A DNA stretch of 64,000 nt from Haliclona indistincta (taxonomy: Eukaryota > Porifera > Demospongiae > Haplosclerida > Chalinidae): NCBI GenBank assembly GCA_964017065.1, contig OZ024788.1, positions 8,721,761-8,785,760 of the forward strand. Reading direction: 5' to 3'. This document shows positions 1 to 50,193 of this stretch, in pieces. The position numbers were made by a program, and so were the translations under genes. The notes under the pieces were generated by a model. It made no database searches and had not been told where the DNA came from. It saw nothing but the letters and a program-made list of their open reading frames with translations. Within the stretch, counting starts at the first letter, position 1, and every line of letters starts with the position of its first letter.

Positions 1-317
1 CCAAATTTAATGTACCTGAACTTACTTATGCCAGCTGCAGGTGCAACAGAAGGTAGAATTTGTGAACTTGAAGACGTTATTAGGGAGGCACGGTAGTGAC
101 TCCCTATGTAGGGATGAACGAGAAAACAAGATGGCGGCTACATACACTGTATTAGCGTTCAAACGCTGATATTTCGCCTGGTGTTGAATTTTATACGTCT
201 TTAGACACTTAGATCTGCTCTCTGGCGTTGCTCCATCTTACAGTAGCAAGGAGATTGCTCGAAATTGTTACTAAAGTGACGAACCTGGAAACGGTGAAAA
301 TCGAGTTTCGTCATCTT

Positions 318-325
318 CGTTTTCT

Positions 326-391
<66 letters not shown>

Positions 392-604
392 TTCCTTCCT
401 TCCTTCCTTCCTTCCTTCCTTCCTTCCTTCCTTCCTTCCTTCCTTCCTTCCTTCCTTCCTTCCTCCCTTCCTCCCTCCCTCCCTCCCTCCCTCCCTCCCT
501 CCCTCCCTCCCTCCCTCCCTCCCTCCCTCCCTCCCTCCCTCCCTCCTTCCTTCCTTCCTTCCTTCCTTCCTTCCTTCCTTCCTTCCTTTCTTTCTTTCTT
601 TCTT
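318..604. repeat. Compound tetranucleotide microsatellite (CTTT/CCTT/CCCT)
   Basis: The tract runs CTTT, then CCTT, then CCCT, and back to CCTT and CTTT. The strand is almost purely pyrimidine for about 285 bp. It sits inside repeat family A at a place where other family copies have only a short pyrimidine run (for example 40385-40403 and 58270-58310 on the opposite strand). Long open frames on both strands here are only products of the repeat. Confidence 0.95.
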
Positions 605-1159
605 CCACTCGCCTAGCGCCTTTACGCGAGCAGTGCCGAGTCCAAAACATCCACGAACAGTCGTGAAATTCTCCTGGCATGTGCCTTTTGAGCTTTGTTT
701 TTAGCGTAACGGCGATCGAAGTTTCGCGGTTTCTCGATCGTGATCCATTGTGTTAGACGCCATTATTGTGATTGCGCAATACGCACGTGACCAAGCAATG
801 GGTAGCGCACGTGACCAAACAGCTAAAGTATCGCTGCGCCGTGTGGATCACTATCACGGAGAACACACACCCGGCATTTGTCTGGAGTCTTCGAAGAACG
901 GTAAGCTCGTGTAGGATCGTCATTCTGCACTTGCCAAATAATTATAACCGTCTACAAACAAGTGTGGGCGGGGCTCGTATGTACTGCATGCATGCGTAGG
1001 CGACAAGGCAGACCTGATACGTGCAGCTTAACAATTTTAGCTACAAGTTTAAGAAAAGCCATCAACAACAGCAATACTAAACTAATGGTGGAAACAAAGA
1101 CTTCTCCGTACATGCATGATTATTGAAATGCACTTCACTAAAAAGAAAAGGGACACAAA

Positions 1160-1551
1160 CAAGAAATTAAAAAGATTTCTATCGAAATCAAAAGGATGTA
1201 GTGATGAAGAAATCTACCACTGGTTCACATTGTAAACCAACAAGAAACGGGCATAGAATGGTAACACGATTGACTTGCTAACAGACCATAGATCCCTACA
1301 TCAGTGGCTGTACATAAGATCAATATTTTGTCACAAGCTGAATTCTATTCAAAGTGTCAGTCAACAGTAAATAGCTTAACTAGCTATAGTCTGGCCACAG
1401 CAGCCACTGATGTAGGGATCTATGGTCTGTTAGCAAGTCAATCGTGTTACCATTCTATGCCTGTTCCTTGTTGGTTTACATTGTGAACCAGTGGTAGATT
1501 TCTTCATCACTACATCCTTTTGATTTCGATAGAAATCTTTTTAATTTCTTG
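1160..1551. repeat. Foldback (inverted repeat) at the end of family A
   Basis: The left arm starts AAAAAGATTTCTATCG and the right arm ends with the reverse complement, CGATAGAAATCTTTTT. Arms of about 145 bp flank a short unique centre. Related foldbacks close family A copies at about 7205-7555, 40970-41324, 49322-49629 and 57312-57695, so it travels as part of that element. Confidence 0.8.
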
Positions 1552-1949
1552 TTATTGTTGAAACAGTTGTAAAAAATTCTTCTGGTATCAATTGTGATGC
1601 AGACGTTATTAATTGAATTGTGCTTGATAAAGATGGTGGTAGTATTGTTGTAAAAATTTCCTCTGATATCAAATGTGATGCAGACATTGTTGATTGAATT
1701 GTGCTTGATAACATTGATTGTAGTGAACTTGAAGTATACATGGTTGATTGAGTTGGAGAGTCGAGACCTAGGTTTAATAAAATCAAGTCGTGATTATTAT
1801 AAATAACTGACCAAGTGTGCATCTTGGTTTATGTTCGGCTGAATACAAGTTAAGTTCAGGCCTCCTTGTATCACGGTCGTCCACATAGTAACATGCTGTT
1901 AGCACACACTCTCCTGTCTCGGTCAGTGCAGGGAGGTCATCTACACTGA

Positions 1950-2252
1950 ATATTCTATTAGACCATACCACGTGACTTTTAAATGCACACTTACAGAGGT
2001 TTGCAGGTTGCTTGACCAAACAATTTCCTGTTAGCGCATGCGCATAGAGTGTTTTTGTATACTAATTGTATAGAAAACGTACTGTGCGCATGCGCTAGCA
2101 GTAAATTTTTGGTCAAGCAACCTGCGAACCTCTGTAAGTGTGCGATTAAGTTCTTAATGCACACTTTTAGTAACGCGCACTTTATTAATGCACACTTTTA
2201 GGTAAACAAAGCAAACAAAGATTGGTCGAAAGTCACGCAGTATGGTCTAAAA
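1950..2252. mobile_element. MITE with TTAGACCATAC-type ends, hosting a nested foldback MITE
   Basis: The ends read TTAGACCATACCACGTGACT on the left and the imperfect complement AGTCACGCAGTATGGTCTAA on the right. A related copy lies at 6862-7042 in the intron before the membrane exon of receptor copy 2. Inside is a second inverted-repeat element (about 1988-2143, arms of about 55 bp around GGTTGCTTGACCAA and GCGCATGCGC). Together they interrupt exon C of receptor copy 0. Confidence 0.7.
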
Positions 2253-2589
2253 CGTTTAGACCACACTAGGCGGTGCATTACGCGATATAAAGCACTTAAC
2301 CTATCCTTCTCCATCAAATCCATTAACAGGTATAGTTGGCTACAGTAAGAAAATGAATATCAATCACATGTGCTTTAATTTGTTGCAAAAACTTTTAACT
2401 TATAGAAATCACATGGTGGTTTCCAACCGGCACTGAACTGATAATGTTGAAAATAGACAATGAAGATTAAATAAAAGATTCCAGAGATAATGAAACACAA
2501 ACAGTCACTTTATTCCTGCTTTATTCAATTTAAAACGACACATGTACATAGTAATACAATTTTACAATGAAGTAGTTCAAGTAAAAAGC

Positions 2590-4345
2590 TTAATCATACA
2601 CACTAAAATCATAGATGTAGTCATCTGATGCCAACATGTGCTGTGGAGCTTGTGCTGTCTGTAAATTATTTGATATAATTATAGCTTGTTTCACTGTGAT
2701 TCATATTGGATGCGTGTATATAGCTCGTTTCACTGTGATTCATGTTGGATGCGTGTATACAGGTCGATTCACTGTGATTCTTATTGGATGCAACATCAGC
2801 AGTAACCTGGCTTGAAACTGATTCTGCATCAATGTCTTGAGATCGTGGACTCATAATATGTGGTAATGAAGAGTCTGAACTGTCACTGGATGTAATTTAC
2901 TGCATTCTGATACTGATGGGGACTTTGGGTCCAGAGGTTGTGTGAGTGTCACTATTGATCCAGAGTAAGACAATGTCACAATAATTTTATCCTGCATGTA
3001 ATTATGACAATCATAATTATTATGACAATCAACACATATAATTTTCTTACCTCTTGCTTAAAATCAAGTTCAAAATCGGCCAGTCCATTTCTACAAAGAA
3101 ACAATATAATTATTGTCATGCTATTATTATAATTATTTAACATACTTTACTCCAATCCCTATTCTTCTGATACATATGAACAATGCTAGTATGAGCACGA
3201 GTAGGATGACAACTAGCATTATAGCCATTGGAATAGTAGACACTAGCAATATTGTCTGATTACCTGCAAATTTTCAAATTGAATAGCATTGTGAATGAGA
3301 ATGACATGCACATTAATTGTCTTGTATGTCTCTTTGTATATACAAAACAACTTAAACCTAAAACTCAAGTGAATAATTTTCAGTATAAAACATATTTCCC
3401 CAACTAAATAAGAGAACAGCTGGTATAAGAGAACAGTGGGTATAAGAGAACAGTGGGTATACGAAAACGAGAACAGCCAATTTGGAAACATAAATCTAGT
3501 AGTAGCAAGGTGTATCTAGTAGCCTATACTGAGAAATCTGGAAACAAAACCCTAAACTCTTATCTTCATAAAAGAACTGAATCCAGTAAAGTCATGGGAA
3601 ACTCACAAAAATGATAAGTTTCTCAATCAGGAGAAGAAATTACTGATAGGCAGATAATTAACATGAAATTTGGCTTCTGGTATTATTAATAGACGATCGG
3701 TTGAAGATGGCTAAACTTGTCAATACCTATTATATGCAAGTACGTTACGCATTTGAAAATATTTGCAAGAAATTCTTATTGTCAAGCTCAAGCAATCTAC
3801 ATACACAATCATCATTATAATCCCCAGGCAAGTTCTCTAAACTACAGGGGTGGAGCTGGCCGGCCTGGGGTGTGGTTAACATTACAGACCAACTTTAATG
3901 TACCTGAACTTACTTATGCCAGCTGCAGGTGCAACAGATGAAGGCAGAATTTGTGAACTTGAAGACGGTATTATTGTTGAAACAGTTGTAAAAATTTCTT
4001 CTGATATTGAATGTGATGAACTCTTGGATGCAGACATTGTTGATTGAATTGTGCTTGATAACATTGATTGTGGCGAACTTGAAGTATACATGGTTGATTG
4101 AGTTGGAGAGTCGCGACCCAGCCTTATAAAATCAAGTTGTGATTATTATTGAAATTTCAAATTAACTGACCAAATGTGCATGTTGGTTTATGATCTGCTA
4201 GATATAAGTTATTGTCATCCCGCAATATATCAGGGTCGTCCACATAGTAACACGCTGTTAGCATACACTCTCCTGGCTCATTCAGTGGGAGGTCATCAAC
4301 TCTGAATGTTCTATCAGTCTTTCCTACTCCATCATATCCATTAAC
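2590..4345 (-). pseudogene. Receptor family copy 1, decayed (exons C, D, membrane, tail)
   Basis: Minus strand. Exon C is at about 4345-4157, the stalk at about 4122-3914, the membrane exon near 3265-3150 with the same hydrophobic segment as copies 2 and 3, a short juxtamembrane exon near 3090-3050, and the tail from about 2991 to the stop at 2590. Lesions relative to copy 2: the tail carries a 5-nt insertion (AAATT after the SEC codons) that shifts the frame; exon C has lost its 3' splice acceptor region (the CTACAG side is replaced by an A-rich tract); and the stalk acceptor CCTAG is altered. Signal-peptide and B exons are missing except for a B remnant near 4685-4735. It still ends in the family signature YIYDFSVYD. 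It looks like a dead duplicate. Confidence 0.75.
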
Positions 4346-4861: not shown

Positions 4862-7800
4862 TTAATCATACACACTGTAATCATAGTTGTAGTCATCATA
4901 CGCACTGTAATCATAGTTGTAGTCATCTGGTGCCAACATGTGCTGTGAAGTTTGTGCTGTCTGTAAACTGTTTGGTATATAGCTCGTTTCACTGTGATTC
5001 ATATTGGATGTGTATATATAGCTCGTTTCACCGTGAGTGCGTATATACATGTAGGTCGTTTCACTGTGATTCATATTGGATGCAACATCAGCAGTAACCT
5101 GGCTTGAATCTGATTCTGCACGATCAATGTCTTGAGATTGCGGACTCATAACATGTGGTAATGAAGAATCTGAACTGTAACTGGATGTACTGCATTCTGA
5201 TACTGATGGGGACTTTGGGTCCAGAGGTTGTGTGAATGTCACTATCGATCCAGAGCAAGACAATGTAGCAATAATTTTATCCTGCATGTAATTATGACAA
5301 TCATTACAAGTAATAAAAACATTTTAACCAAAATGCAAGAGATTTAGGGTTGGTACATTTGTCAAAAAAGAATGGAAACAAGATTTTGAAATGAAATGGA
5401 TTGTAACAATAGCAGTGTAATGCTACCTCCCTATTAAATTAACCACAACTATCGAAAGCAGTTAATTTAGGGAGGTAGCATTACACTGCTATTGTTACAA
5501 TCCATTTCATTTCAAAATCTTGTTTTCATTCTTTTTTGACAAATGTACCAACCCTAAATCTCTTGCATTTTGGTTAAAATGTTTTTATTACTTGTTTATT
5601 TTCTTTTTTTTTTTAATGACTTAGTTGGCACTTATGCTAATACAGTGTATAAAGAGAACTAGTTCAGCTGACTGCACTGCCAAGCCCGGCTCTTTCGACT
5701 CTGCACTGCATGCATGCATGCAACACGTACCATGCAACATTAGCTAAGCTTAATCTAGCATTCTTGCAAGCCTGAACAGACAAATCCAGTGTAACCATAA
5801 AGATTTGCACATTGTCTGCCGTGAACAACACTGCTAGAGGCAGCAGCACTCGCGTTCCAAGCAATTTGTACTAAGGTGCGCTTGTATTAGAATAATTACA
5901 TACACGGGCGTGCGCGAGTAGGCGTAACCTAGTAACGGAGTTCAAACAGAATGATGGAACGGAGTCTGTTATGGATCCAAAATCGCTGTTTTTCTGGAAA
6001 TACTCGCTTCTGTTAGTGTTTTAGGCTTAAATAGATATCAGGTGCACTGCTCACAACGAATACTGTAGTTTCTGTATAGCTTTTGTTTCGAATAGCTCAA
6101 TCGCCACGGCGCTAGGCTGGCGGGAGAAGAAGAAGAAGAAGAAAGAAGATGAACAAACGGGTGACCACGTGAACTCTGGTTTACCACCTTAGACGTGGAT
6201 TCTTTTGCTTCTAAAGGTCTCTTTGCCATCGCATAAATCGTACAAGGTGCTTCAGAACGTTAGATTCTCTTGAAAGGCCCGTAAGGCGAAGATATGGTAG
6301 TGCCGTACTTATGCCTCGAGGCGAGACGCCATCTTACCATGCCCATGGCAACTGCCCTTATAGTCTTTATTAGTAGACTATTTGTAAGCGCTCACCTCTT
6401 AGGATAGCCCCTAGGTAGTTAAAATACCCCTGATGTAGTCAACAGCCAAGATATACGTGAATTATTGTGTTTAGCCTAAGTGTAGCCGCCATCTTGTTTC
6501 CGCCCAACCCTAAATATGCCACGTCTACCGCGTGGCATAATTATGACAATCAACACATACAATTTTCTTACCTCTTGCTTAAAATCAAGGTCAAAATCGC
6601 CCAGTGCATTTCTACGAAGAAACAATATAATTATTATCATGCTATTATTATAATTATTACACTTACTTTACTCCAATCCCTGTTCTTCTGATACATATGA
6701 ACAATGCTAGTATGAGCACGAGTAGGATGACAACTAACATGATAGCCATTGGAATAGTAGACGCTAGCAATATTGTCTGATTACCTGCAAATTTTCAAAT
6801 TGAATAGCATTTTCAAAATGAGAATGACATGCACATCGTTTTGCATGTCTTTTTGTATACATTATTAGACCATACCACGTGACTTTCGACCAATCAGATT
6901 GCTCAAAAAGTGTGCATTAAATAGCTTAATGCACACTTACGTGTGCATTAAGTTCTTAATGCACACTTTTATTAATGCCACTTTATTAATGCACACGTTT
7001 AGGTAAACAAAGTGAACAAAGATTGGTTGAAAGTCACGCGGTATAAATATTACTTAAACCTATAAAACTCAAGTGATTAATTTTCAGTATAAAACATAAT
7101 TATTTCCACAACTAAATAAGAGTGCAGCCGGTATAAGAGAACCAATTTGGGAACATAAATCTAGTAGTAGCAATGGAGTATAGCAAGGTTTATCTAGTAG
7201 CATAATTTAAAAAGATTTCTATCGAAATGAAAAGGATGTAGGGTCGTGAAATCTACCTACATCCTCCTACATGAAAACCCTTCACAACCCTGTAGATTTC
7301 TCCTACAGGGTTGTGAAATCTACCTACATGACATCTGAAGATGTCATCATCAGATGTCAGTCATCATCAGGTGTCAGTCAACAGCAACTAGCTGAACTAT
7401 AGCTATAGCCAACCACAGCAGCCACTGATATGGTCTGTAAGCAAGTCAATCGTGTTACCATTCCATGCTTGTTCCTTGTTAGTTTGCATTGTGGACCAGT
7501 GGTAGATTTCACAACCCTACATCCTTTTGATTTCGATAGAAATCTTTTTTATTTTCTTGTTTGTGTCCTTTTTTCTTTTTCAGTGAAGTGCAGTTCAATA
7601 TCATGCATGTTCTGAGCCATCTTTGTTTCCAACATTGTTTAATTTTCTTGTTGTTGATGGCTTTTCTTTATTATTAACAATTTTAAACTTGTAGCAATTG
7701 TTATGCTGTACAAATCAGCTCGCCTACGCATGCATGCATGTATATGTAGTGCATACGAGCCCCGCCCATACCTGTTTGTAGAAAAGGAAGGTGGTTATAA

Positions 7801-10800
7801 TTATCTGGCAATCGCAGAATGGTGTTCCTATACGAGCTTACCGTTCTTCGAAGACTCCAAACAATTATGTGATATATGTGGCGCGTGTGGCGATACTCAA
7901 GCTAAAGTGATTGGTCACGTGCGCTAACCACTGCTTGGTCAAGTGCGTATTGCGCAATCACAATAATGACGTCTAACACTTAGCTGACAATGGATCACGA
8001 TCGAGAAATCGCGGAATTTATATCGCCGTTTCGCTAGAAACAAAGTTCAAAAGGCACATGCCAGGAGAATTTCACGACTGTTCGAGGGTGTTTTGATCTC
8101 GGCACTGCTCGCGTAAAGGCGCTAGGTGAGTGGAAGAAAGAAAGAAAGAAGAAGAAAACGAAGATGACGAAACTCGATTTTCACCGTTTTCAGGTTCATC
8201 ACTTTAGTAACAATTTCGAGCAATCTCCTTGCTACTGTAAGATGGGGCAACGCCAGAGAGCAGATCTAAGTGTCTTTGGACGTATAAAATTCATCACCAG
8301 GCGAAATATCAGCGTTCGAACGCTAATACATTGTATGTAGCCGCCATCTTGTTTTCCCGTTCAACCCTACATAGGGAGGCACTACCGTGCCTACCGTGCC
8401 AATAGGCACGGTATTGGCACGGTACCGGTAAAGGGTTAATAGCCAGATTTATCAGTATTGGCACGGTAGGCCACTACCGTGAAGAAATTACTGATAGGCA
8501 GAAAATTAGCATGAAAGTTGGCTGCTGGCATATTAACCCTTTAATCACTAAATTATCTTGCTGAAATTTTAATCTCGTAAATACTGACCACTTCCCTCTC
8601 GTGAATATCTCGTGTGTCTTTTGTGCTACTGGTCTCAAATTTCCGTCCTTTTACGCCAGTGAGTAGCCGCAATTGCTCACACTCAAGTCAGTCGATATGC
8701 CCCTCCCACTTCGAAAGTGAAGCCGATAAAGTGCAACGACCTCGTCAAATTTTGCTCAAAGTTAGAACTTTGGGGCTGGATACTGAAAAGTACACACAAA
8801 TAGCAGTGGTTTTGGTGAGTGCAAAATGTAGCCCAGATCATAGAGAATGCACAAAAATGTGTTTCCGAGCACCCTGAAGCCATAAAATGTCCAAATTTTC
8901 TTGGTTGCCATTTTTTCTTCCTAAAATGTTGTGGAATTTGCACTGAAGCCATAGAAAAATGCCATCGCCAATACGTTTAGCGCAGGGGTCGCGCCGAAAA
9001 CCGGTCAATTTTTTGGGCGGTTATTTGTATTCTTCAATTTAGCTTAATTTCTCAATAAAAATTATTTTAACACTTTTTGATATGGTGTCTGAAGTATGTA
9101 TGTCGCCAAATGGCGACAATAGGGGTTAAAGGGTTAATAGACGATCGTTGAAGATGCTAAATTTGTCAATACCTATGCAAGTACGTTAAGTAAGTGAAAG
9201 TATTTGCAAGAAATTTTTATTGTCAAGCTCAAGCAATCTACATGCACATGTAGCATCATTATAATCCCAAGGCAAGTTCTCTAAACTACAGGATGGAGCT
9301 GGCCGGCCTGGGGTGAGGTTAACGTAACAGACCAAATTTAATGTACCTGAACTTACTTATGTCAGCTGCAAGTGCAACAGAAGGTAGAATTTGTGAACTT
9401 GAAGACGGTATTATTGTTGAAACAGTTGTAAAAAATTCTTCTGGTATCAATTGTGATTCAGACGTTATTGATTGAATTGTGCTTGATAAAGATGGTGGTA
9501 GTATTGTTGTAAAAATTTCCTCTGATATCAAGTGTGATGCAGACATTGTCGATTGAGTCAAGTGTGATGTAGACATTGTTGATTGAGTCAAGTGTGATGC
9601 AGACATTGTTGATTGAGTCAAGTGTGATGCAGACATTGTTGATTGAGTCAAGTGTGATGCAGACATTGTTGATTGAGTCAAGTGTGATGCAGACATTGTT
9701 GATTGAATTGTGCTTGATAACATTGATTGTAGCGAACTTGAAGTATATATGGTTGATTGAGTTGGAGAGTCGAGATCTAGGTTTAATAAATCAAGTCATG
9801 ATTATTATTGAAATTTCAAGACAAATAACTGACCAAATGTGCATGTTGGTTTATGTTCAGCTGAATACAAGTTAAGCTCAGTCCCCCGTGTATCAGGGTG
9901 ATCCACATAGTAACACGCTGTTAGCACACACTCTCCTGGCTCAGTCAGTGGGAGGTCATCTACACTGAATGTGTCATTAGTCATTCCTACTCCATCACGT
10001 CCAATAACTATAGTTGGCTACAGTAAGAAAATAAATATCAATTAAGTGTGCTTTGTTGCAAAAACATTTAGGTGATAAAAATCACACGATGCATGGTTTC
10101 CAACCGGCACTAAACTATGCTGGTCATTGACAAGTGCTGCTGCCACTGTAAGAAAGGCGCCTAGAGTTTGGGCAGTGAGTCAGTCAGCTAATCTGCACGA
10201 ATGTTTGATGCAGCAGTGCAGTGCTGTGCAAGTCAGGGCCTGGTCAGTTCTTTCAGCACACTAATAAAAAAGCCGGCTGTAGCACCTGCAATTCATCTTC
10301 GAAGCGCTGTGACACAACTGACTACTGACAAGTCTGCAATCAATTACATTACGTCTACTGACCTGTTGGTTGACAATTCCAGTGCCATTGCATCGTGACT
10401 CGACCAACACCCAAGTTATTTCGACATCGTCTTGTTGATTTGAAAGGCTAAATACTCCACTGGAGCAGTTAACATTGAACAACAGGTTGCCGCTATAGAC
10501 TGAGCTATCTGCAATAAACACGACAAATTCAATTATCACACAATGAGTGATAGTAATCATACATACTTATTGCATTGTCGCAGGTTGATGAGCCTGAAAT
10601 AGGTAAGTGAACGTTACAGACCATTAACTATAATGTAGCTGAACTTACTTAAGCCAGCTGCAGGTGCAACAGTAGGCAGAATGTGTGAACTTGAAGATGG
10701 TATTATTGTTAAAACAGTTGTAAAAATTCCTAAATGTGATGCAGACGTTGTTGATCGAATTGTGCTTATGGTTGGTTGAGTTGGAGAGTCGACATCTAGG

Positions 10801-13800
10801 TTTAATAGAATCAAGTCGTGATTATTATTGAAATTTCAAGACAAATTGACTGACCATATGTGCATGTTGGTTTACTATCTGCTAGATATAAGTCATTCTT
10901 GTGCCCCCATGTACCATCAGGGTCATCCACAAAGTAACACGCTGTTAGCACACACTCTCCTGGTTCGGTCAGTGGGAGGTCATCTACACTGAATGTGTCA
11001 TTAGTCATTCCTACTCCATCACGTCCAATAACTATAGTTGGCTACAGTAAGAAAATAAATATCAATTAAGTGTGCTTTGTTGCAAAAACATTTAGGTGAT
11101 AAAAATCACACGATGCATGGTTTCCAACCGGCACTAAACTATGCTGGTCATTGAAAAGTGCTGCTGCCACTGTAAGAAAGGCGCCTAGAGTTTGGGCAGT
11201 GAGTCTGTCAGCTAATCTGCACGAATGTTTGATGCAGCAGTGCAGTGCTGTGCAAGTCAGGGCCTGGTCAGTTCTTTCAGCACACTAATAAAAAAGCCGG
11301 CTGTAGCACCTGCAATTCAACTTCGAAGCGTTGTGACACAACTAACTACTGACAAGTCTGCAATCAATTACATTACGTCTACTGACCTGTTGGTTGACAA
11401 TTCCAGTGCCATTGCATCTTGACTCGACCCTCACCCAAGTTATTTCGACATCGTCTTGTTGATTTGAAAGGCTAAATACTCCACTGGAGCAGTTAACATT
11501 GAACAACAGGTTGCTGCTATAGACTGAGCTATCTGCAATAAACACGACAGATTCAATTATCACACAATGAGTGATAGTAATCATACATACTTATTGCATT
11601 GTCGCAGGTTGATGAGCCTGAAATAGGTAAGTGAACGTTACAGACCATTAACTATAATGTAGCTGAACTTACTTAAGCCAGCTGCAGGTGCAACAGTAGG
11701 CAGAATTTGTGAACTTGAAGATGGTATTATTGTTAAAACAGTTGTAAAAATTCCCAAATGTGATGCAGACGTTGTTGATCGAATTGTGCTTATGGTTGGT
11801 TGAGTTGGAGAGTCGAGACCTAGGTTTAATAGAATCAAGTCGTGATTATTATTGAAATTTCAAGACAAATTGACTGACCATATGTGCATGTTGGTTTACT
11901 ATCTGCTAGATATAAGTAATTTTTGTGCCCCCGTTTACCATCAGGGTCATCCACATAGTAACATGCTGTTAGCACACACTCTCCTGGCTCAGTCAGTGGG
12001 AGGTCATCTACTCTGAGTGTATCATCAGTCTTGCCTACTCCATCATATCCATTAACAGGTTTAGTTGGCTACAGTAAGAAAATTATCAATCAAGTGTGCT
12101 TTGTTGCAAAAACTTTTAACTGATAAAAATCACACGGTGGTTTCCAACCAGCACTGAACTATGCCAGTCACTGACAAGTGCTGCTGCCATGCATGGTAAG
12201 AAAGGCACCGGGGACATGCCGCGGGGACTACTAGAGTTCAATAGATTGGGATAAAAGAATAAATCGAAGCGGTAGCATCCCCGCAATTCAATGAGCTAGA
12301 ACTTCGAAGCGCTGTGACACAACTGACTACTGACAAGTCTGCAATCAATTACATTAGAGTAAGCCACCTATATTCGGCCACCATCTATTATCGGACACTC
12401 GCACGTACATTTGCAAATACGCTACACAGATCAAACTTGACCGACGTATAGACACACTCTTCCTCTGCCTGCATTGCAAATTTGAAACTCGTAACTGCTT
12501 CTTTGTCCATTGTGTAGACGAAGAAAGTGGGTAGCCGAAAACAAAGTTGATGTTCGGCAAAAGTAATCGAATTTCGGACACCAGTCCTAGTGACTGATAG
12601 ACGAATAGGGCGGGATTGCAAGTCAGTACTGCAAACACCTTCATCCATCAGCATTACAACGAGCTACAATTGAAAACCTCTCGTCTTGCCGTCCGGGTAA
12701 TATTCTTTCCCAAAGACCCCGGGGTCGAGCAATCTATGTTCGGCAACTCATGATATAGTTTCAGTGCAATTTGTGCACAAAGAAAACACGATTGCGATAC
12801 AGAAACACGTTAGTTGAGTAGAGCAATCTCCTGTCTATCACAATCACCAAAAATTCAGTAACCCTGCGTTCGTCTCTTGATCGCGCAAGCTGCAAACAGC
12901 CAAACTAGTGGGCGTGGCTTCCAAGGAGTAATGCAGTGGTTGTAAAACAACGAGTAAACCGAGCTCTCTAGAAGTTAAATTTGATTCTAAGCCTCTTTGT
13001 CTGCACTAGCGAAGTAGTTTAGCGCTGATCAATGACTGCACTAGTGATGGATAGTAATTTTATAATGGAGTCCTCAAATCAGCAAGCACTGTCCACCATA
13101 TCCACCACGAGTGCAGTGAGTGAAGTCACTAAAGTACTTTGCGAGTGTAGACAAAGAGGCTTAGAATCAAAATTAATTTAACTTCTGGAGTGCTCGGTTT
13201 ACAACCACGGGATTACTCCTGTCCTTGGAAGCCACGCCCACTAGTTTGGCTGTTTGCAGCTTGCGCGATCGAACGCAGGGTTACTGAATTTTGGTGATTG
13301 TGATAGACAGGAGATTGCTCTACTCAACTAACGTGTTTCTGTATCGCAATCGTGTTTTCTTTGTGCACAAATCGCACTGAAACAATATCATGAGTTGCCG
13401 AACATAGATTGCTCGACCCCGGGGTCTTTGGAAAAGAATATTACCCGGACGGCAAGACGAGAGGTTTTCAATTGTAGCTCGTTGTAATGCTGATGGATGA
13501 AGGTGTTTGCAGTACTGACTTGCAATCCCGCCCTATTCGTCTATCAGTCACTAGGACTGGTGTCCGAAACTCGATTACTTTTGCCGAACATCAATGTTTT
13601 CGGCTACCCACTTTCTTCGTCTACACAATGGACAAAGAAGCAGTTACGAGTTTCAAATTTGCAATGCAGGCAGAGGAAGAGTGTGTCTATACATGGGTCA
13701 AGTTTGATCTGTGTAGCGTATTTGCAAGTGTACGTGCGAGTGTCCGATAATAGATGGTGGCCGAATATAGGTGGCTTACTCTACGTCTACTGACCTGTTG

Positions 13801-14098
13801 GTTGACAATTCCAGTGCCATTGCATCGTGACTCAACCGTCACCCAGACTATTTCGACTCGGGCTGGTTGATTTGAAAGGCTAAATGTTCCACTGGAGCAG
13901 TTAACGTTGAACAACAGGTTGCCGCCATAGACTGAGCTATCTGCAACAAACACGACAGATTCAATAATAATTAGTGACACAATGAGCGATAGTAATCATA
14001 CTCATTGCTTTATCACAGTCTGAGCCTGATGACAGGTGACACCACACCGCCAGGAAAATACACATCCGGCAGCAATGGATCCTCCAGAAGCGATACAT
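4862..14098 (-). CDS. Receptor family copy 2: secreted N-terminus, three 6-Cys modules, Ser/Thr stalk, one membrane helix, Tyr-rich tail (15 exons, about 813 aa)
   Basis: Not a family I recognise. My exon model, 5' to 3' on the minus strand: 14098-14002; 13940-13795; 12068-11879; 11819-11673; 11617-11591; 11532-11387; 11041-10855; 10795-10649; 10593-10567; 10508-10363; 10017-9834; 9776-9357; 6784-6667; 6611-6572; 5281-4862. Every junction is GT-AG, phases agree and no stop interrupts. MYRFW plus a hydrophobic stretch (CRMCIFLAVWCHLSSGS) looks like a signal peptide. Each module (short exon, B, C, D) is about 170 residues with six cysteines, around NVNCSSG, VESRCNGTG, GECVLTACY and KPTCTYG, and is bounded by phase-1 introns. 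The last stalk is enlarged by an in-frame repeat. The membrane exon holds a hydrophobic helix ending LFICIRRTG. The tail is acidic and Ser-rich and ends with a doubled DDYNYDYS. A cell-surface recognition or adhesion role is inference only. Confidence 0.75.
5307..5595. repeat. Near-perfect 289-bp palindrome (foldback)
   Basis: Two arms of about 130 bp are almost exactly complementary, from CAAGTAATAAAAACATTTT on the left to AAAATGTTTTTATTACTTG on the right, around a short centre near 5445-5461. It sits in the intron between the juxtamembrane and tail exons of receptor copy 2. Copies 1 and 3 lack it there. No clear target duplication was found. Confidence 0.85.
5596..6537. other. Inserted intronic DNA with no recognisable gene
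   Basis: Together with the palindrome to its left, this stretch of about 1.2 kb is absent from the matching intron of receptor copies 1 and 3. It contains short reading frames without family features, a GAA-rich run near 6126-6150, and a segment near 6470-6520 resembling the GCCGCCATCTTGTTT ... CAACCCTA end of repeat family A. I see no gene in it. Confidence 0.5.
7205..8393. mobile_element. Repeat family A, copy 2 (inverted orientation)
   Basis: It begins with the foldback end (AAAAGATTTCTATCG) and ends with GCCGCCATCTTGTTTTC ... CATAGGGAGGCACTACCGTG, the reverse of copy 1. The foldback arm is partly rearranged (repeated ATCTGATG-type segments at 7325-7375). It lies in the large intron between the last stalk exon and the membrane exon of receptor copy 2. 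Confidence 0.75.
8537..9133. mobile_element. piggyBac-type non-autonomous element (TTAA target)
   Basis: TTAA at 8533-8536 and 9134-9137 flank an insert whose ends are CCCTTTAA and TTAAAGGG. The unoccupied equivalent in receptor copy 1 (near 3690) reads straight through the site. TTAA duplication with CCC/GGG ends is the hallmark of piggyBac elements. The internal open frames of 87-89 codons show no transposase features, so this is a deletion derivative. Confidence 0.75.
9531..9708 (-). repeat. In-frame 30-bp tandem repeat in stalk exon of receptor copy 2
   Basis: Five to six near-identical 30-bp units, GATTGAGTCAAGTGTGATGC plus AGACATTGTT, repeat inside coding exon 9776-9357. Because 30 is a multiple of 3, each unit adds the ten residues TMSASHLTQS on the minus strand and lengthens the Ser/Thr-rich stalk without a frameshift. 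Stalk exons elsewhere in this gene are 147 nt; this one is 420 nt. Confidence 0.9.
10013..12060. repeat. Tandem duplication, unit about 1,024 bp, carrying one receptor module
   Basis: 10013-11036 and 11037-12060 align along their length with few differences, in introns as well as exons. Each unit spans a complete set of phase-matched exons (short A', B, C and D). High intron identity implies recent duplication or ongoing gene conversion. A third, more diverged module follows and ends at 13940. Confidence 0.85.
12357..13781. mobile_element. Long foldback transposon, copy 1 (1,425 bp, TA target duplication)
   Basis: The ends are GAGTAAGCCACC and GGTGGCTTACTC, flanked by TA at 12355-12356 and 13782-13783. 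The two halves are inverted copies of each other, about 700 bp per arm, meeting near 13050-13090. The empty paralogous site in the two neighbouring modules reads ACATTACGTCTACTG, which confirms ends and TA duplication. It lies in an intron of receptor copy 2 only 11-13 nt from the 5' splice site at 13795. TA duplication suggests mobilisation by a Tc1/mariner-like transposase. Arm reading frames of 88-98 codons mirror each other and have no recognisable domain. Confidence 0.9.
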
Positions 14099-18049: not shown

Positions 18050-21000
18050 TAGTCCAGTAATTTTGTGATTTGACCTCCCACAAATTGCAACAAAAATCAT
18101 TCCACTGTTTTTGCATACTTAATGGTATCCTCTTTAACATATAAAAAGTCCTAAGGAATTCTGTTGGGGGAAAGTGACTAAATTTAAGAAAATTTGTACC
18201 ACTTAACGAGGTGTTAATTATCAACTAAAACTTTTGCAAAAAGTGTATGTATATCAAAAATAAGTCCTTCTCTACAGTCAGCATTGCCACTTAAGTGCCA
18301 CATTTGCACATAGCTTATATGGAAGTGTAATAGTCAGCATATTTCTTGAGCACATGGTAGGCAGCTAAAGCATTTCTGTGCATGAGAGTGGTCTCTTTCT
18401 TTGTTAAGAGCTGTTTTGTGGTAAGTTATACTTTGGCTTAACTTCTGTAACTTATTCTTGATGTCTACAATGTATATCAGCCATGGAGGTGCCTGAAGTC
18501 TGTGCTATTTGTAAACAACCACTAGACCCAAGTGATAGTGTATCAACTCTCAGAGAAAAGGGAAGTACAACCATCAACCAGGTCAGCATTACAAGAAATG
18601 ATGAGATTCACACAGTACCTGGGGAAAGAGTGCACAAAGATTGTCGAAAAATGTACTGCAACCCACACCAGGTAGCTAAGGATACTAAGGGAGATACATG
18701 TAATTCAGAGCATGCAAGTACAAGCAGTGAGCGATATGCACTTAGGTCATCAGAGGAAGAGTTTTCTTTTAAAAGTGATTGCTTCTTTTGTGGAAAACCC
18801 GCCAAGGTTGGTAGAAAAAGAAAGAGGCAGGATGTTCTTCAAGTAAAAACAATTGGCTTGAAGGATGCAGTCTTGGCAACATGTGATGAACGTGGTGATA
18901 GTTGGTCAGACACAGTAAAGGCACGCATAATGCATGTGCATGACCTGCATGCAGCAGATGCTGTTTATCACCAGACCTGCAGCGTTAACTTTCGTACGAA
19001 AAAGCAAATGCCAATGGCTCAGGTGACAGACACAGAAGACACTAAAAGGGCAAAGCTTGGGCGGCCTCGAGATGACAGGAGGGCTACAGCATTCTTAGAA
19101 GTTGCCAATTACTTTGAAGAAAACGATGACGAGCAAATTACTATCAATGACCTGATCAATCTCATGGAACAGAAACTAGCTGACACTACACATCAAGCGT
19201 ATGGCTACACACATATGAAAAAAAGGCTCGAAGAACACTTTGGTGAGAGAATAGTCCTGACCGAAATTAATGGCAAAGCTAGTGTAGTCACCTTCAGGAC
19301 TAAAGCTAGTGTAGTGCTTCAGGAATATTACAGTAAGCAGCAACAAGAAAACAACACTGATGAAGAGAAGATAAAATTAGTACAGGCTGCTGCTAAGCTT
19401 ATCAAAGAAGACATCAAATCCATTGAAACAGCACATAAAGTCTACCCATCCTGTGATGATTTGGAATCGCAAGAGGCTGGTATCAATTACCTTCCGGAGA
19501 CTTTGAAGACACTACTGAAAGAGCTTTTTTCTGGAAAGAAAACTGATGTCAAAGTAGCTTCAATTGGACAATCTGTGATGCAAGCAACAAGACCGAAAGT
19601 CCTTCTGGCACCATTGCAGTTTGGCTTAGGTGTGCAGTTATATCACCACTTCGCATCACGATTCCTCATTGACACACTTCACACTCAGGGATTTTGCTGT
19701 TCATATCAGGAGGTACAAAATTTCGAGCAAAATGCTGCTAAATCCCACAAAACTGACATCCCTAACTTAACATCAGAGTTTGTTCAGTATGCAGCTGATA
19801 ATGTTGACCATAACGTTCGTACAATAGATGGCCACAATACCTTTCATGGAATGGGTATGATTGCTGCTATTACTCCTGGAACCGCTGTACAAAAGCAACC
19901 AATTCCTAGAGCTAAGGTAACCTTTGCTGATGTAGCACTGATAGGAAAAGTGCAAATAAGATACTACAAGGAAGAAAGTCGCGAGATGGTAGAAATAGTT
20001 TATCAGAAGCTAACTAATCTAAGAGCTCAAAACCACTCTCAAAATCTTGATCTTCTTTGGAAAACATCCATAATGTTAGGGTCTCCTAGACCTGCATGGT
20101 CAGGAATGATGCAGTTCGTACATAAAGGTAACCACCATCCTGGCAAGGCAGCTGTTATGTTTCTACCCATGATCGACTTAAACCCCAGCGACAACACTTG
20201 CATATATTCCACCCTGACGTATGTTAGTGAGCATGCTCAAAGACATAATGTCACTCCGATCATCACGTTTGATCAGCCACTCTGGTGGAAGGCTCTTATG
20301 ATAGTAAAATCTGAACCAATAGGGAGCAATTTGAAAGGTCTCGTCTTACGATTGGGAGGTTTTCACACTGAGATGAGCTTTCTGGGATGCATTGGACACC
20401 TGATGGCTTCATCAGGCCTTCAAGAATTGTTAGAGACAATCTATGCTCCCAATGCGATAGTCCATATGATGAGTGGCAAAGCAATTTCTCGAGCTGTACG
20501 TGCACACCTGATTGTTGATGCAGCCCTCAACGCTCTGATGCTGAACATGATTTTCAACGTCCCATTGCCAGACAGTGACAACGGTCTAGAATTGGCTGAT
20601 ACATCAGAGCAACAATCTGTGGAAAATTCAGATCTACATGAAGCTTTCACACTCTTCAAGATGCTGATGGCTGGAGATGTATCTTTTGAAGAAGTCAACA
20701 CATCTGAAGTGCTGAACAGAATTAACTTCAGTCTTGAGAAGCATCGTGAGTCTGTTAAGTTGTCTTCCAGAACAGCCGCACTGTGGATTCAATACATGTG
20801 CACTATGGATATCTTACGAAAATACATCAGGGGAGAACGGACTGGTAAATGGGAGTTACATTTACAGGCTCTTCAGGAAATGCTTCCTTACTTGGCAGCC
20901 TCTGGCCATAACCTGTACACCAAATCTGTTAGAGTATACCTGCAGCAAATGACTAACCTCAAGGCTGAACATCCTCACGTTCAAAAGCATTTTGAAGAAG

Positions 21001-23380
21001 GGTTTCATGTAATTCGACGTAGTGATCGGTTATGGGCAGGACTTTCAACTGATTTGGTTATCGAGCAAGTTCTGATGAGAAGTTTGAAGACTAGTGGAGG
21101 GCTCACAAGAGGACGAGGTATGACAGAAAATCAGCGTTTGCTTTGGGTACTATCAAGGCCTGCATGTGCTGATATCAACCAAGCTATGCAACAGTTTACA
21201 AGAGTTAACTACAACACTGGGGAGCAAAATAAAGACATGACCAAAGCAAGGCAACTGCGCGACTGGAAAGATACACTGGCTGCATTGCAGTATCTCCAGG
21301 AACGAAATCCATTCAGCAATGAAGATCCAAGTCTGCGAAGTATTGCAACTGGACTTCATGCCCACTCTACTGTTAATGTTGATACAGCTCTTACTGTTGG
21401 AAACACTATATTAGAGTCAATGAATGGAAAAAAATCTACGGAGTATACCTTTACAAAGAAGAGCCAAGCAGTCACTCTTGCGACAAAGTCATCTGTCAAA
21501 ATTGATGGAGAGCAAGTCCAGATTGACCCACAGCTTCTATTTCAGAGGCTAATCACTGTGATGCACTCATCTGATGAACTTGAGTCAGTTTTCAAGTACG
21601 AGCTATGCAGCTACCCATCATCTCTATTCGATTCATCTCTTCTACTACGAGAAGCAGACAAACCAGCTTTTGCTGATGCTATCTGGCATCTCAGTGAGCC
21701 ACATGATACAGCAAATGTCTTACAAGGTACTGTTCAATATGTCTTAGATGGTGGAGCACTTCTTCATCGCATACCTTGGCCTCGTGGATCTACCTACAAA
21801 GATATCTGTCACCGTTACACAGATTATGTCACAAAAAAGTACAAAGATGCTATTGTGGTATTTGATGGCTACAGCACTACCAACACAAAGGATGTGACAC
21901 ACCAGAGGCGGGCAAAGGGAAAAGCTAGTATGACTGTAACATTTACAGCAGACATGTATGTTACCACCAAGAAGGAACAGTTTTTAGCCAATAAGGAGAA
22001 CAAACAAAGATTCATTTTTATGCTCAGTGAAGAGCTGCAGAAGAAGAATTGTCAGACACACCATGCATCTGGAGATGCTGATCTGCTTATTGTGTTAAAG
22101 GCTATCCAGTCTGCTACCACCACAAACACAGTGCTAGTTGGAGATGACACGGATCTTATTGTCCTACTTTGTTACCATGCTAGTCTCGATTCTCATGATC
22201 TCTTGTTCCGGCCAGAGCCAAAAAAGACAACGAGGAAACCCCGAACCTGGAACATAAAAGCAATAAAGCAAAGACTCGGCCCAGAAGTGTGCAACCACAT
22301 TCTTTTTATGCATGCATTCCTTGGATGTGACACTACATCTCACCTCTTTGGAATTGGTAAGGGAACATCTCTCAAGAGATTTAGAGCCAGTACTACCTTC
22401 CGTGAGCAAGCTGCAGTATTCAATTCATATCCAGTCAACCCAGATGATGTGATAGCAGCAGGCGAGAGAGCATTAGTTATCGTTTACAATGGAAAATCAA
22501 CTGACTCCTTGGATTCTCTTAGACATCAGCGTTTTTGCGAGAAAGTGGCTTCAAAATCATCACAGCACGTTAAACCACAAACCTTACCACCAACTTCTGA
22601 GGCAGCGAAGTACCACAGCTTGCGGGTATATTTTCAAGTCCAGCAATGGAAAGGAGCAGCAGACAGTCTTCATCCAACAGACTGGGGTTGGCAGGTATGT
22701 GACGATGGATTTGTGCCACAACAGACAACACGAGCTCCAGCCCCTGAACGTTTGCTACGCATCATCAGATGTAACTGCAAGACAGACTGCAGTACCACAA
22801 AATGCACTTGCAAAAAACACAACATAGAGTGTACTCCAGCTTGTGGTAACTGCAGAGGATCTGGCTGTACAAATGCATCGATTTTTGAAGATAGTGATGA
22901 AGAATATGCAGATGAAGACTATCTGGACATTGACACAGACTGTATTGATATGTATTGATATGTTCTAAATATTATTTACTTCATCAGACATAACATTACT
23001 TCATGCAAAGTTGGTTGAATGGTTTAGGAGGAACAGGGTCATTTGTATTTTAGGTCGTAACTCATTCAGACTTTGTCTCACTTACATGTTGTTGGTCTCA
23101 AATGATAGCTCATACACAGACCTTTCCAATGGTAATAATTGTATATGCTATAAGTAATATTTAAGCTTTAAAACAGCTTTTTAAATACAGATAATTAATA
23201 ATTCAAAGGTGTCAAAATGAGAATAATTATTAAGTGATTTCACATATTTCCCCCCATGGGATTCCTTAGGACTTTTTTTCAGTGATTGTAGATATGTTAA
23301 GGAAACAAATGCAGTTGAGTTTGCTTTTGTTGCAATTAGTGTGAGGTTTGGCCTATATTTTCACTAAAATGACTGGACTA
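18050..23380 (+). mobile_element. 5.33-kb autonomous DNA transposon, Academ-like, 3-bp target duplication CAG
   Basis: CAG at 18047-18049 and 23381-23383 flank ends TAGTCCAGT and ACTGGACTA. The imperfect inverted repeats continue inwards for about 150 bp, including AATTGCAACAAAA and AAAAAGTCCTAAGGAAT on both sides in inverted order. Removing the element plus one CAG restores the host reading frame (RPS then DEQLTNT). The single intronless ORF is intact, so it may be a young insertion. A 3-bp duplication together with a transposase that carries an XPG-like nuclease fits the Academ superfamily as I know it; the assignment is by features, not by search. Confidence 0.75.
18483..22958 (+). CDS. 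Academ-like transposase with XPG-like nuclease and CXC domains (1491 aa)
   Basis: One uninterrupted ORF inside the element with TAGTCCAGT ends. Order seen: Cys/His-rich N-terminus (CAICKQPLD ... HKDCRKMYC, then SDCFFCGKP and YHQTCSVNF); a basic RKRKR patch near residue 115; a central region with FDQPLWW (Asp about 597) and LGGFHTEMSFLG (about 622-633), which I take as part of the RNase H-like catalytic core; a PIN/XPG-like region with GDADLLIVL (about 1197), GDDTDLIVLL (about 1220) and FLGCDTTS (about 1280); then a tesmin/TSO1-type CXC region (CNCKTDC ... CTCKKHNIEC ... CGNCRGSGC, about 1430-1465) and an acidic end. It would act in the nucleus, cutting and joining the element ends. The first ATG in frame lies about 430 bp inside the left end. 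Confidence 0.75.
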   Translation: MEVPEVCAICKQPLDPSDSVSTLREKGSTTINQVSITRNDEIHTVPGERVHKDCRKMYCNPHQVAKDTKGDTCNSEHASTSSERYALRSSEEEFSFKSDCFFCGKPAKVGRKRKRQDVLQVKTIGLKDAVLATCDERGDSWSDTVKARIMHVHDLHAADAVYHQTCSVNFRTKKQMPMAQVTDTEDTKRAKLGRPRDDRRATAFLEVANYFEENDDEQITINDLINLMEQKLADTTHQAYGYTHMKKRLEEHFGERIVLTEINGKASVVTFRTKASVVLQEYYSKQQQENNTDEEKIKLVQAAAKLIKEDIKSIETAHKVYPSCDDLESQEAGINYLPETLKTLLKELFSGKKTDVKVASIGQSVMQATRPKVLLAPLQFGLGVQLYHHFASRFLIDTLHTQGFCCSYQEVQNFEQNAAKSHKTDIPNLTSEFVQYAADNVDHNVRTIDGHNTFHGMGMIAAITPGTAVQKQPIPRAKVTFADVALIGKVQIRYYKEESREMVEIVYQKLTNLRAQNHSQNLDLLWKTSIMLGSPRPAWSGMMQFVHKGNHHPGKAAVMFLPMIDLNPSDNTCIYSTLTYVSEHAQRHNVTPIITFDQPLWWKALMIVKSEPIGSNLKGLVLRLGGFHTEMSFLGCIGHLMASSGLQELLETIYAPNAIVHMMSGKAISRAVRAHLIVDAALNALMLNMIFNVPLPDSDNGLELADTSEQQSVENSDLHEAFTLFKMLMAGDVSFEEVNTSEVLNRINFSLEKHRESVKLSSRTAALWIQYMCTMDILRKYIRGERTGKWELHLQALQEMLPYLAASGHNLYTKSVRVYLQQMTNLKAEHPHVQKHFEEGFHVIRRSDRLWAGLSTDLVIEQVLMRSLKTSGGLTRGRGMTENQRLLWVLSRPACADINQAMQQFTRVNYNTGEQNKDMTKARQLRDWKDTLAALQYLQERNPFSNEDPSLRSIATGLHAHSTVNVDTALTVGNTILESMNGKKSTEYTFTKKSQAVTLATKSSVKIDGEQVQIDPQLLFQRLITVMHSSDELESVFKYELCSYPSSLFDSSLLLREADKPAFADAIWHLSEPHDTANVLQGTVQYVLDGGALLHRIPWPRGSTYKDICHRYTDYVTKKYKDAIVVFDGYSTTNTKDVTHQRRAKGKASMTVTFTADMYVTTKKEQFLANKENKQRFIFMLSEELQKKNCQTHHASGDADLLIVLKAIQSATTTNTVLVGDDTDLIVLLCYHASLDSHDLLFRPEPKKTTRKPRTWNIKAIKQRLGPEVCNHILFMHAFLGCDTTSHLFGIGKGTSLKRFRASTTFREQAAVFNSYPVNPDDVIAAGERALVIVYNGKSTDSLDSLRHQRFCEKVASKSSQHVKPQTLPPTSEAAKYHSLRVYFQVQQWKGAADSLHPTDWGWQVCDDGFVPQQTTRAPAPERLLRIIRCNCKTDCSTTKCTCKKHNIECTPACGNCRGSGCTNASIFEDSDEEYADEDYLDIDTDCIDMY

Positions 23381-36514: not shown

Positions 36515-38114
36515 CAATGAAATTTTATTTAGCGTTCTTGTGAGAATGAGTCTTCTAAATAAACACAAAATTTGGTACCCACTGGATACAAAAGTTTTAT
36601 AAGCTATATTCCTGGAATAAATGCAATGTACTGTTCTAACCTGTGTAGCCAGGGACTATCAGCAACAGAGCTGTTGAGCGTCTGTACTGTCAGACCCACT
36701 GTGTTAGTCAGCTCCAGCTGTATCTGGGCAACCAGTAGCATAGCCACACCCACACACCCTATCAGCATTCCAGATATCATACACAAGCTGACTATACTGC
36801 CGACAAGATCTTGCGTAAAGTGTAAAACACGTTTGTCCACCTGGATAAAAAAGTTGTACAGCGTTGGAAGCGGATGAGGAAACAATGATGAAGAATGGTG
36901 ATCGATCCACACAAGGATATTCTGTGAGGTTGATTTACAGAGATACACCATTCTGTGAGTGACTTGGAATTTTGACGATAGTCGCTTTAAAATGCTCCAA
37001 GCTACAATAGGAGCCAAGAGGAGTAGGAAGAGAGGATGTCGCCATAGCAACACCACCATACAACACGTATAGAGCAGTAGAAACAGCTGGTCACTAGGAC
37101 AATGAGTGTTAGAGATTTCTTCCTCAAATTCACTCAAGTGACGTTGTTTCTTTTTAGATCTTCGAGGCGTTCGATCGCCATCAACTTCGTCGTCTTTCGT
37201 ACTAGACTATAAGCAGGGGAAGACGGTGTTTCTTGAGGGGTTGGTGACACTTGGAGAAGGGGTTCGGTGAAATGCACCAATGACTGTTTCTCGGCTAGTT
37301 CGTCCTGATAAGATGAGTCCGATACCACCTCAGGTTGGTCATCATCTGGCTGCCATCGCTCCTCATCTTGATGGTGAGATATTTCTTGCACTGTTGCTGA
37401 CGACAAGCTCTTGAGACTGTCACTAACAACGTCAGCGATACTCGTCTGCTTCTTCAGTGATCTCGGTGTGGAGGGAGATTTGCTGTAGAAGAGGCTAGCT
37501 AGCAGAAATAGGAACGTCATTAGAGGCAGCGCCATGCTCCCGAGGCACCAGCTGGTGATGTTAACAAGAATGAGGAACCACAGAGACACATGCAGAGAAT
37601 ATTTAAGCAGAGGTTTGGGATGGTAGAGACGAGAGCTGACGGCAAGTATATACAATCATTTGAACATCAGCTGTTGGAAGAAAACAACAAATTCAACATA
37701 CATTGTACTGGTATATGTCCCCCTCTGATATTTATAACGTTGGAGTATTATACAACAATAGGCGGGCCCGTATAGGCAGCTTCAAGAAGAGAGGTCAGAA
37801 AAAATGGACCAATATCTAGAAAAATCTAACTTGATTTATTACGTACGATCGGTGGCTCTTTTGCTGGCGATCTGGAGTTCTACGTAGACATTAATATCCA
37901 CAGTTGACTGCCTAGAAGTTGATAGGTTAGAATTTCAATACAGGATAGCACTCACACGTCTAAAGAAATTGTGTGTAAGCAAGCTATGGACGCTATCTCG
38001 CTCGTCACTGCTCGTGTGCTGTGCTCGTGGCCTCGTGCTGAACATTATAGACACGCCCAGTTGAATCAGTGGTCGACGGTCAAGCGCACCAGACTGACCA
38101 GAGGAGGTTGGCCA

Positions 38115-43331: not shown

Positions 43332-43388
43332 AAGTTAGTGACTTGTTCATTTGAAGCATTTTAATAAGAGCTATACCATTTTGTTTTT

Positions 43389-43560
43389 TAGCAGCAAATC
43401 TACAAAGCAAAGATGTATTTGTGTAAGTGATAGGTTAACCTGCAGTGCTTCTGCAATGTGTAACAGACCATCTATGCCACAATCATAAAGTGTTAATCTA
43501 GTGATGGTCGTTTGAGCTCCCTGTCCAGTAATGGATGATGTATAAAAGTTAATTGAGCAC
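43389..43560 (-). pseudogene. Leucine-rich-repeat remnant (RNase-inhibitor/NLR type)
   Basis: The minus strand reads TTITRLTLYDCGIDGLLHIA followed by EALQVNLSLTQIHLCF. The spacing L-x-L-x-x-C-G-I then I-A-E-A-L then N-x-S-L-T is the consensus of the 28-residue LRRs found in RNase inhibitor and NLR proteins. Only about one and a half repeats are visible and the frame closes at a stop near 43391, so this is a fragment. A link to an innate-immune NLR gene is inference. Confidence 0.55.
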
Positions 43561-49876: not shown

Positions 49877-49993
49877 TCAGTCTGCGATGGAGCAACAAGC
49901 ATGATTGTTGCAACAAGTATGAGCAGCAAGTATGATTGTTGCAACAAGTATGATTGTTGCAACAAGTATGATGGAGCAACAAGTAGCAACAAG
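49877..49993. repeat. 18-bp tandem repeat next to the gap, built from a receptor exon/intron border
   Basis: GCTCAGTCTGCGATGGAGCA then ACAAGCATGATTG copies, in inverted orientation, the end of the signal-peptide exon and its donor in receptor copy 3 (49655-49690). GTATGATTGTTGCAACAA then repeats several times up to the gap. It may be the edge of another, inverted receptor copy hidden in the gap. Confidence 0.7.
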
Positions 49994-50193
49994 NNNNNNN
50001 NNNNNNNNNNNNNNNNNNNNNNNNNNNNNNNNNNNNNNNNNNNNNNNNNNNNNNNNNNNNNNNNNNNNNNNNNNNNNNNNNNNNNNNNNNNNNNNNNNNN
50101 NNNNNNNNNNNNNNNNNNNNNNNNNNNNNNNNNNNNNNNNNNNNNNNNNNNNNNNNNNNNNNNNNNNNNNNNNNNNNNNNNNNNNNNNNNNNN
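49994..50193. other. Assembly gap, 200 N
   Basis: Exactly 200 undetermined bases, a typical placeholder length, so the true distance is unknown. It separates receptor copy 3 from TMEM245 copy 2 and cuts the last exon of the latter. The join itself could be wrong. Confidence 0.95.

Follow-up and report, generated by a model that had tools for sequence, protein, structure and literature searches.

The 64,000-nucleotide stretch of Haliclona indistincta contig OZ024788.1 analysed here (C6:8721761–8785760, in a 144-Mb assembly of 46 contigs; hereafter the window) carries members of a modular, clustered gene family for predicted single-pass, receptor-like proteins. Gene A (14098–4862, minus strand) has 15 exons and encodes 813 amino acids with three copies of a six-cysteine module; its frame is open throughout and every junction is GT–AG. 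Gene B (49755–44066, minus strand) has seven exons and an open frame of 412 amino acids, with one module, a long tail and again only GT–AG junctions. Searches of the same assembly by module, tail and signal exon recovered 25 loci or more, counting fragments; 19 lie within about 240 kb of one contig. The family is real and apparently restricted to one lineage; its members are stalked single-pass proteins whose modules and tails are interchangeable. An earlier note, made from the letters of the window alone, had proposed a modular, clustered family of this kind; the proposal was supported and is extended here to at least 25 loci, one to three modules, a second module class, two tail lengths and recombination. 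The cassette as the symmetric unit, the two tail lengths, the second module class with its chimaeras and the recombination within modules are new. Judging from sequence features, we lean towards reading the family as lineage-specific cell-surface receptors of recognition type.

Modules, cassettes and gene models

The exons of genes A and B were those proposed in the earlier note; spliced by script, its 15-exon and 7-exon models both read open at the lengths given above. The module has approximately 110 residues and is encoded by two exons, M1 (146 nt, phase 1 to 0) and M2 (184–193 nt, phase 0 to 1). Of its six cysteines, five lie in M1 and M2 and the sixth in the preceding exon, which is either the signal exon or a 27-nt exon. 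The earlier note had described a six-cysteine module; only five cysteines fall within the module exons. It had also described the module exons as beginning and ending in phase 1. Neither M1 nor M2 is symmetric singly, but the M1–M2 pair is, as is the cassette of 27-nt exon, M1, M2 and stalk exon (27 + 146 + 184–193 nt + stalk). Since the module spans two exons, symmetry belongs to the cassette and not to the single exon, and it is at this level that the gain or loss of modules leaves the frame intact, as the note had argued. In gene A, cassettes 2 and 3 are a 1,024-bp tandem repeat, with 97.7–100% identity over the first 640 bp and divergence after that.

A module profile was built from 14 class I modules (g13 left out) and one class II module. 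Across these 15 sequences 23 columns were invariant, the five module cysteines among them. The scaffold was conserved and variable residues were concentrated in a length-variable loop. Identical splice junctions recurred on four contigs. By hydropathy, a single strong membrane helix was present in five of five models, and the stalks of these models were mucin-like (Ser/Thr fraction 0.39–0.45). Exon 1 of gene A, with the putative signal peptide, had 16 genome-wide matches, counting itself and one tandem duplicate in locus g6. The signal peptide itself, read by eye in the models, exceeded the 19-residue hydropathy threshold of 1.6 in only two of five.

The earlier note had assigned the same set of parts to four loci in the window. 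This was true of A and B, which are full, but within the window copies C and D lack a signal-peptide exon, and of M1 copy C has only the last third, further upstream. The placement of copy D at positions 1–2350 covers its 5' part; the copy continues outside the window, where the helix and a tail exon with an open frame are found at about C6:8721205–8720625. Broken copies (C, D) beside open ones (A, B) and a varying number of modules (three in A, one in B) were both confirmed.

Fold-back palindromes of approximately 1.4 kb, with arms 94–99% complementary, were seen in introns of both A (12355–13783) and B (47551–49013); by eye, the two are alike. A run of little over 200 N bases (about 49975–50193) lies upstream of the first exon of gene B.

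Copies, tails and recombination

Type I genes were found at 18 loci, fragments included, which is a lower bound (Table 1). Uninterrupted models were obtained for seven of them: A (813 amino acids), B (412), g13 (441), g2 (283), g4 (287), g11 (396) and g14 (543). Gene A has three modules, g14 two and the other five one each. In the second cassette of g14, M2 has 192 nt (phase 0 to 0) and is followed by a stalk exon of 232 nt (phase 0 to 1); the frame stays open because the two length changes cancel. Loci g5, g12, g16, C1a, C1b, C4 and C9 were partial, disrupted or incompletely recovered.

The ectodomain occurs with two kinds of tail, a feature of paired receptors. Tails were long in five of the open models (A, B, g11, g13, g14) and short in two (g2, g4). 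Among 16 type I helix exons, seven led to a long tail, eight to a first cytoplasmic exon that had lost its donor, and one (C9) was disrupted. A GT donor, an intron and a long tail exon followed the helix in A, B, C, D, g11, g13 and g14; the tail exon was open in six of these copies, the frame of C being broken. The donor of the first cytoplasmic exon was lost in g1, g2, g3, g4, g6, g12, g15 and C4. In g2 and g4 the frame reads through to a stop, which gives tails of about 35–37 residues. Short tails would accordingly be products of the apparent loss of a splice donor. The lesions replacing GTAAG were AAAAT in five copies, GAAAG in two and TTAAA in one; since they differ, the short tail may have more than one origin.

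The class II module is approximately 40% identical to class I, with which it shares the five module cysteines and the division over two exons. It occurs in four places in the same cluster, read here as modules, helix and tail exons. In two of these the class II module continues into class I parts (Table 1). Five class II tail exons were present in the genome, one of them with a stop. Type I and class II tail exons start alike (GS-x-x-T-x-x-QPL), and hhalign aligned 16 columns (E 0.0038) at a probability of only 8.7%. The case for a common origin of the two tail classes draws on their position no less than on their sequence.

Paralogues recombine inside the module, and the swapped part contains the length-variable loop. 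Locus C4 is a mosaic: its M1 is 97% identical to that of A1, its M2 is 96–97% identical to those of B, g13 and g14a (79% to A1), and over the stretch that starts at the end of the helix and takes in the first tail exon it is nearest to the short-tailed g4 (88%). The mosaic was significant in a Fisher test (p 4e-5; the counts were obtained by rounding percentages). Within gene A, the first part of M2 in A3 is 95–100% identical to A2, and from the loop into the stalk A3 is 83–96% identical to copy D in most blocks, the exception being one intron block (55%) where D carries a deletion. A compatibility test similar to the pairwise homoplasy index, with 35 informative sites, also indicated recombination (p 0.0005).

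Table 1. Positions of family members and their parts. Plain coordinates are window positions; those with C6 refer to the contig.
Feature	Position	Strand	Details
Gene A exon 1 with start codon, putative signal peptide and first Cys of module 1	14002..14098	-	97 nt, phase 0 to 1
Gene A module 1, first half (M1)	13795..13940	-	146 nt, phase 1 to 0
Gene A module 1, second half (M2)	11879..12068	-	190 nt, phase 0 to 1
Gene A stalk exon after module 1	11673..11819	-	147 nt, phase 1 to 1
Gene A cassette 2: 27-nt exon, M1, M2, stalk and introns	10594..11617	-	1,024-bp tandem unit
Gene A cassette 3: 27-nt exon, M1, M2, 420-nt Ser/Thr stalk with repeated 10-aa unit	9357..10593	-	recombinant; 3' half of M2 and first part of stalk like copy D
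Gene A membrane-helix exon	6667..6784	-	118 nt, phase 1 to 2; peak hydropathy 3.62
Gene A first cytoplasmic exon	6572..6611	-	40 nt, phase 2 to 0; carries the donor that short-tailed copies lack
Gene A long Ser/Tyr-rich tail exon and stop	4862..5281	-	
Gene B exons	49755-49659, 46598-46453, 46080-45888, 45824-45489, 44648-44531, 44473-44434, 44374-44066	-	
Copy C: M2, stalk, helix, tail	2590..4345	-	no signal exon in window; tail frame broken; pseudogene
Copy D, 5' part: M2 and stalk	1..2350	-	interrupted by inserted DNA
Type I loci g2, g4, g5, g6, D, C, A, B, g11, g12, g13, g14 (twelve)	C6:8.63-8.86 Mb		
Type I locus g15	C6:9.68 Mb		
Type I locus g16	C6:3.56 Mb		
Type I loci elsewhere			two on contig C1 (C1a, C1b), one on C4, one on C9
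Class II g17, g18	C6:8631 and C6:8693 kb		module continues into a helix of its own and a 148-aa tail exon that differs from type I
Class II/class I chimaeras g1, g3	C6:8623 and C6:8686 kb		class II module, then class I stalk, helix and short tail

Short remnants resembling leucine-rich repeats (LRR) were noticed by eye just downstream of several copies: at window positions 43371–43559 (minus strand), after g3 (C6:8688.2 kb) and after g15. They look as if the duplicated unit once held an LRR gene; the piece in the window was without a Pfam match.

Constraint and relatives

The module is under constraint. In 15 full-length class I modules there were no stops, compared with approximately 19 expected under unconstrained change on the same tree, the choice of full-length modules itself favouring unbroken copies. 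This set, also used for the selection tests, comprised the class I modules other than g11 (then incomplete), the partial modules of C, D and g16, and the fragment at C6:9679129; class II was kept apart. Omega, the ratio of nonsynonymous to synonymous rates, was 0.12–0.14 at 47–60% of module sites. Standard M1a/M2a tests for module sites with omega greater than 1 were strongly positive, with twice the log-likelihood difference (2dlnL) at 89, 17, 34 and 52 in the sets tested; null simulations for the last of these reached a maximum of 5.3 in 37.

None of the 15 modules matched any Pfam family at E<=10 (HMMER filters hide most very weak matches), and the module profile matched no PDB sequence at E<=10, in agreement with the earlier description of the family as apparently undescribed. 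A recognisable Ig domain was found by neither search, a result that concerns sequence and not fold. No SRCR, TIR or NACHT Pfam domains were present in modules or tails. Weak Pfam lines for RIFIN, Stevor and DAG1 were far below the cut-offs and were disregarded. A relationship to FN3 was rejected: hhalign gave a score of 11.05 against a shuffled mean of 10.6, and 40 of 100 shuffles reached it (the FN3 profile consisted of five typed domains only).

A protein database was queried with the full-length B model and two tail exons, and returned seven matches (P0001–P0007). P0005 and P0004 equal the tails of A and B, respectively, letter for letter along their lengths, and P0001 contains the tail exon of g11. 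From the match table, P0006 had 93% identity and P0007 100% over 59% of the query. The longest contig listed has a length of 451,472 both for P0001 (type I) and for P0006 (class II), so that the two are probably on one contig. With these queries no match from another species was recognised, in a database where eukaryotes may be poorly covered, and all matches look like the same species. P0002 differs from the g14 tail at several residues in 106 and is possibly the allele of another individual, a hint of allelic variation. In the literature searched, mostly open-access and not searchable by sequence for an unnamed family, no title or abstract opening among the papers listed described such a family.

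Proposed recognition function and alternative readings

Recognition would be the best-supported function, on the grounds of how the proteins are built and not of a test. Architecture, exon phases, copy number, tail classes, recombination and module constraint can be read from the sequence; splicing, surface expression, signalling, recognition and the role of the short tails we infer, in the following scheme. The signal peptide would direct the protein to the cell surface, where one to three compact six-cysteine modules would face outward on the mucin-like Ser/Thr stalk, with one helix spanning the membrane. The long tail, of about 120–160 residues with Ser and Tyr, could dock kinases or adaptors. 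Short-tailed members have the same ectodomain; they could not signal in this way and would serve as competitors, as decoys or in adhesion. The family would owe its diversity to tandem duplication, gain of phase-1 cassettes, ectodomain swaps between tails and recombination between paralogues in the module, the last of which would exchange the variable loop.

Several observations weigh against such a function. Copies C, D, g6 and g15 are broken; g15 has a stop at the end of the helix exon, and g6 has one 317 nt into the stalk exon, ahead of the sole GTAAG in the 800 nt examined. The Tyr-rich tail of the earlier note holds for gene A (14 Tyr in 160 residues) but not for gene B (4 in 123). Its suggestion of tyrosine-based signalling was not borne out in canonical form. 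Six type I long tails were scanned (A, B and g13 whole; D, g11 and g14 as tail exon only) for the immunoreceptor tyrosine-based inhibitory and activation motifs (ITIM, ITAM), NPxY, PPxY and YxN, with motif names and meanings in their usual sense, and none was present. The tail of A has one sequence, TTYMYI, resembling the immunoreceptor tyrosine-based switch motif (ITSM), which 11% of shuffles reach. In class II, the tails of g17 and g18 each have one ITIM-like SDYQKV, reached by 25% and 17% of shuffles.

The selection tests were also less favourable than they first appear. Control exons were positive too: 2dlnL was 25.6 for the signal-peptide exon (13 of 16 exons, the two on C1 and one g6 duplicate left out), which may be inflated by ragged ends in g5 and g15, 9.1 for the helix (14 of 16, g12 and C9 left out) and 7.0 for the tail (six exons, the broken tail of C left out). 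Synonymous divergence in M1 was low, with windows of pS (proportion of synonymous differences) of 0.016–0.27 compared with 0.249, 0.109 and 0.205 in neighbouring intron stretches. When synonymous-rate variation was modelled, with M1 and M2 fitted separately, 2dlnL fell to 4.83 for M1 (p 0.09) and 6.26 for M2 (p 0.044). Single-omega estimates were 0.77–1.47 over all exons tested and 0.86 in the tail, so that constraint on the tail is weak too. Diversifying selection is not claimed, since the controls were positive, recombination is present and the signal shrinks with synonymous-rate variation; as a proof of recognition it was dropped. The recognition or immune-type reading of the earlier note would fit the build of the proteins but remains an inference.

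The leading alternative, which is compatible with a recognition function, is that the module is a very divergent Ig or FN3 beta-sandwich and the family an expansion of a known superfamily. By inspection, the length of about 110 amino acids, the alternating hydrophobic strands and the conserved cysteines are compatible with this. The empty Pfam and PDB searches and the FN3 comparison at shuffled level (profile–profile comparison was made for FN3 only) speak against it, and we regard it as possible, though doubtful. Less probable still is that these are adhesion, matrix or gamete-surface glycoproteins, with a structural or mating role for the stalked ectodomain and a turnover unrelated to immunity or allorecognition. 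The mucin-like stalk, the type I tails without canonical ITIM or ITAM and the several broken or short-tailed members would suit such proteins. The long cytoplasmic tail exon kept open in six copies would not, nor would class II, whose ectodomain is related but whose long tail is a different one, with a PPxY motif (PPSY, reached by 1% of shuffles) and a weak YxxQ (16–25%); we consider it unlikely. A decaying tandem array, mostly of non-functional segmental-duplication copies with open frames as young leftovers, would explain the four broken copies and the single-omega estimates near 1, but is highly improbable given the stop-free modules, the low omega at about half or more of their sites, the splice junctions kept on four contigs and the balanced length change in g14.

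Cell-surface recognition, the reading we lean towards, invites comparison with known systems. Vertebrate KIR, LILR and FcR-like families, in the excerpted account of the Xenopus XFL genes (PMC2413239), evolve by birth-and-death and domain shuffling, vary in module number and have long and short tails; their domains are Ig, their tail motifs are of the YxxV/L/I type, and two short-tailed XFL clones have NxxR in the helix. The present family appears similar to such paired receptors in its varying module number and in carrying long, possibly signalling, and short tails on similar ectodomains. It differs from them in that an Ig domain is not detectable, type I tails are without canonical ITIM or ITAM and the helix is uncharged: by reading, no K, R, D or E occurred in the hydrophobic span of 14 aligned copies, where a charged residue in short-tailed forms would serve an ITAM partner. 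In the Alr allorecognition family of Hydractinia, intact genes stand beside pseudogenes, and the tails have tyrosine motifs. Alr domains are recognised as Ig-like, in contrast to the present module, and the present genes are known without fusion/rejection genetics. Sponges have expanded immune-type families of SRCR, NLR and Ig-TIR genes, according to the summaries of two studies of early animals (PMC12909245, PMC10855680); unlike these, the modules and tails described here were found without those domains.

A more specific version is that the family is an independently evolved paired-receptor system of an early-branching animal, based on a non-Ig six-cysteine module whose loop is shuffled by recombination between paralogues, in which splice-donor loss makes non-signalling partners, and hence a candidate allorecognition or microbe-sensing complex. 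As a whole this is rather unlikely. The combination of paired long and short tails with reshuffled ligand-binding loops is familiar chiefly from the immunity of vertebrates and from a few allorecognition systems of invertebrates, and such a family on an unrecognised module would, if true, be an independent invention. With its exons named and its locus of 240 kb defined, the family allows the question of recognition to be put to the test.

Elsewhere in the window, a membrane-protein-like gene is present in two copies (36604–37655 and 55853–56819), 98% identical over 127 amino acids. Both lie near tandem-repeat arrays (about 33.7–34.3 and 52.3–53.1 kb), probably as a result of segmental duplication within the window. 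Positions 18462–22958 (plus strand) hold a single open reading frame of 1,498 amino acids. Its C-terminus is rich in Cys, and Pfam gave no match at E<=0.01; the frame may belong to a mobile element or be a domesticated gene.

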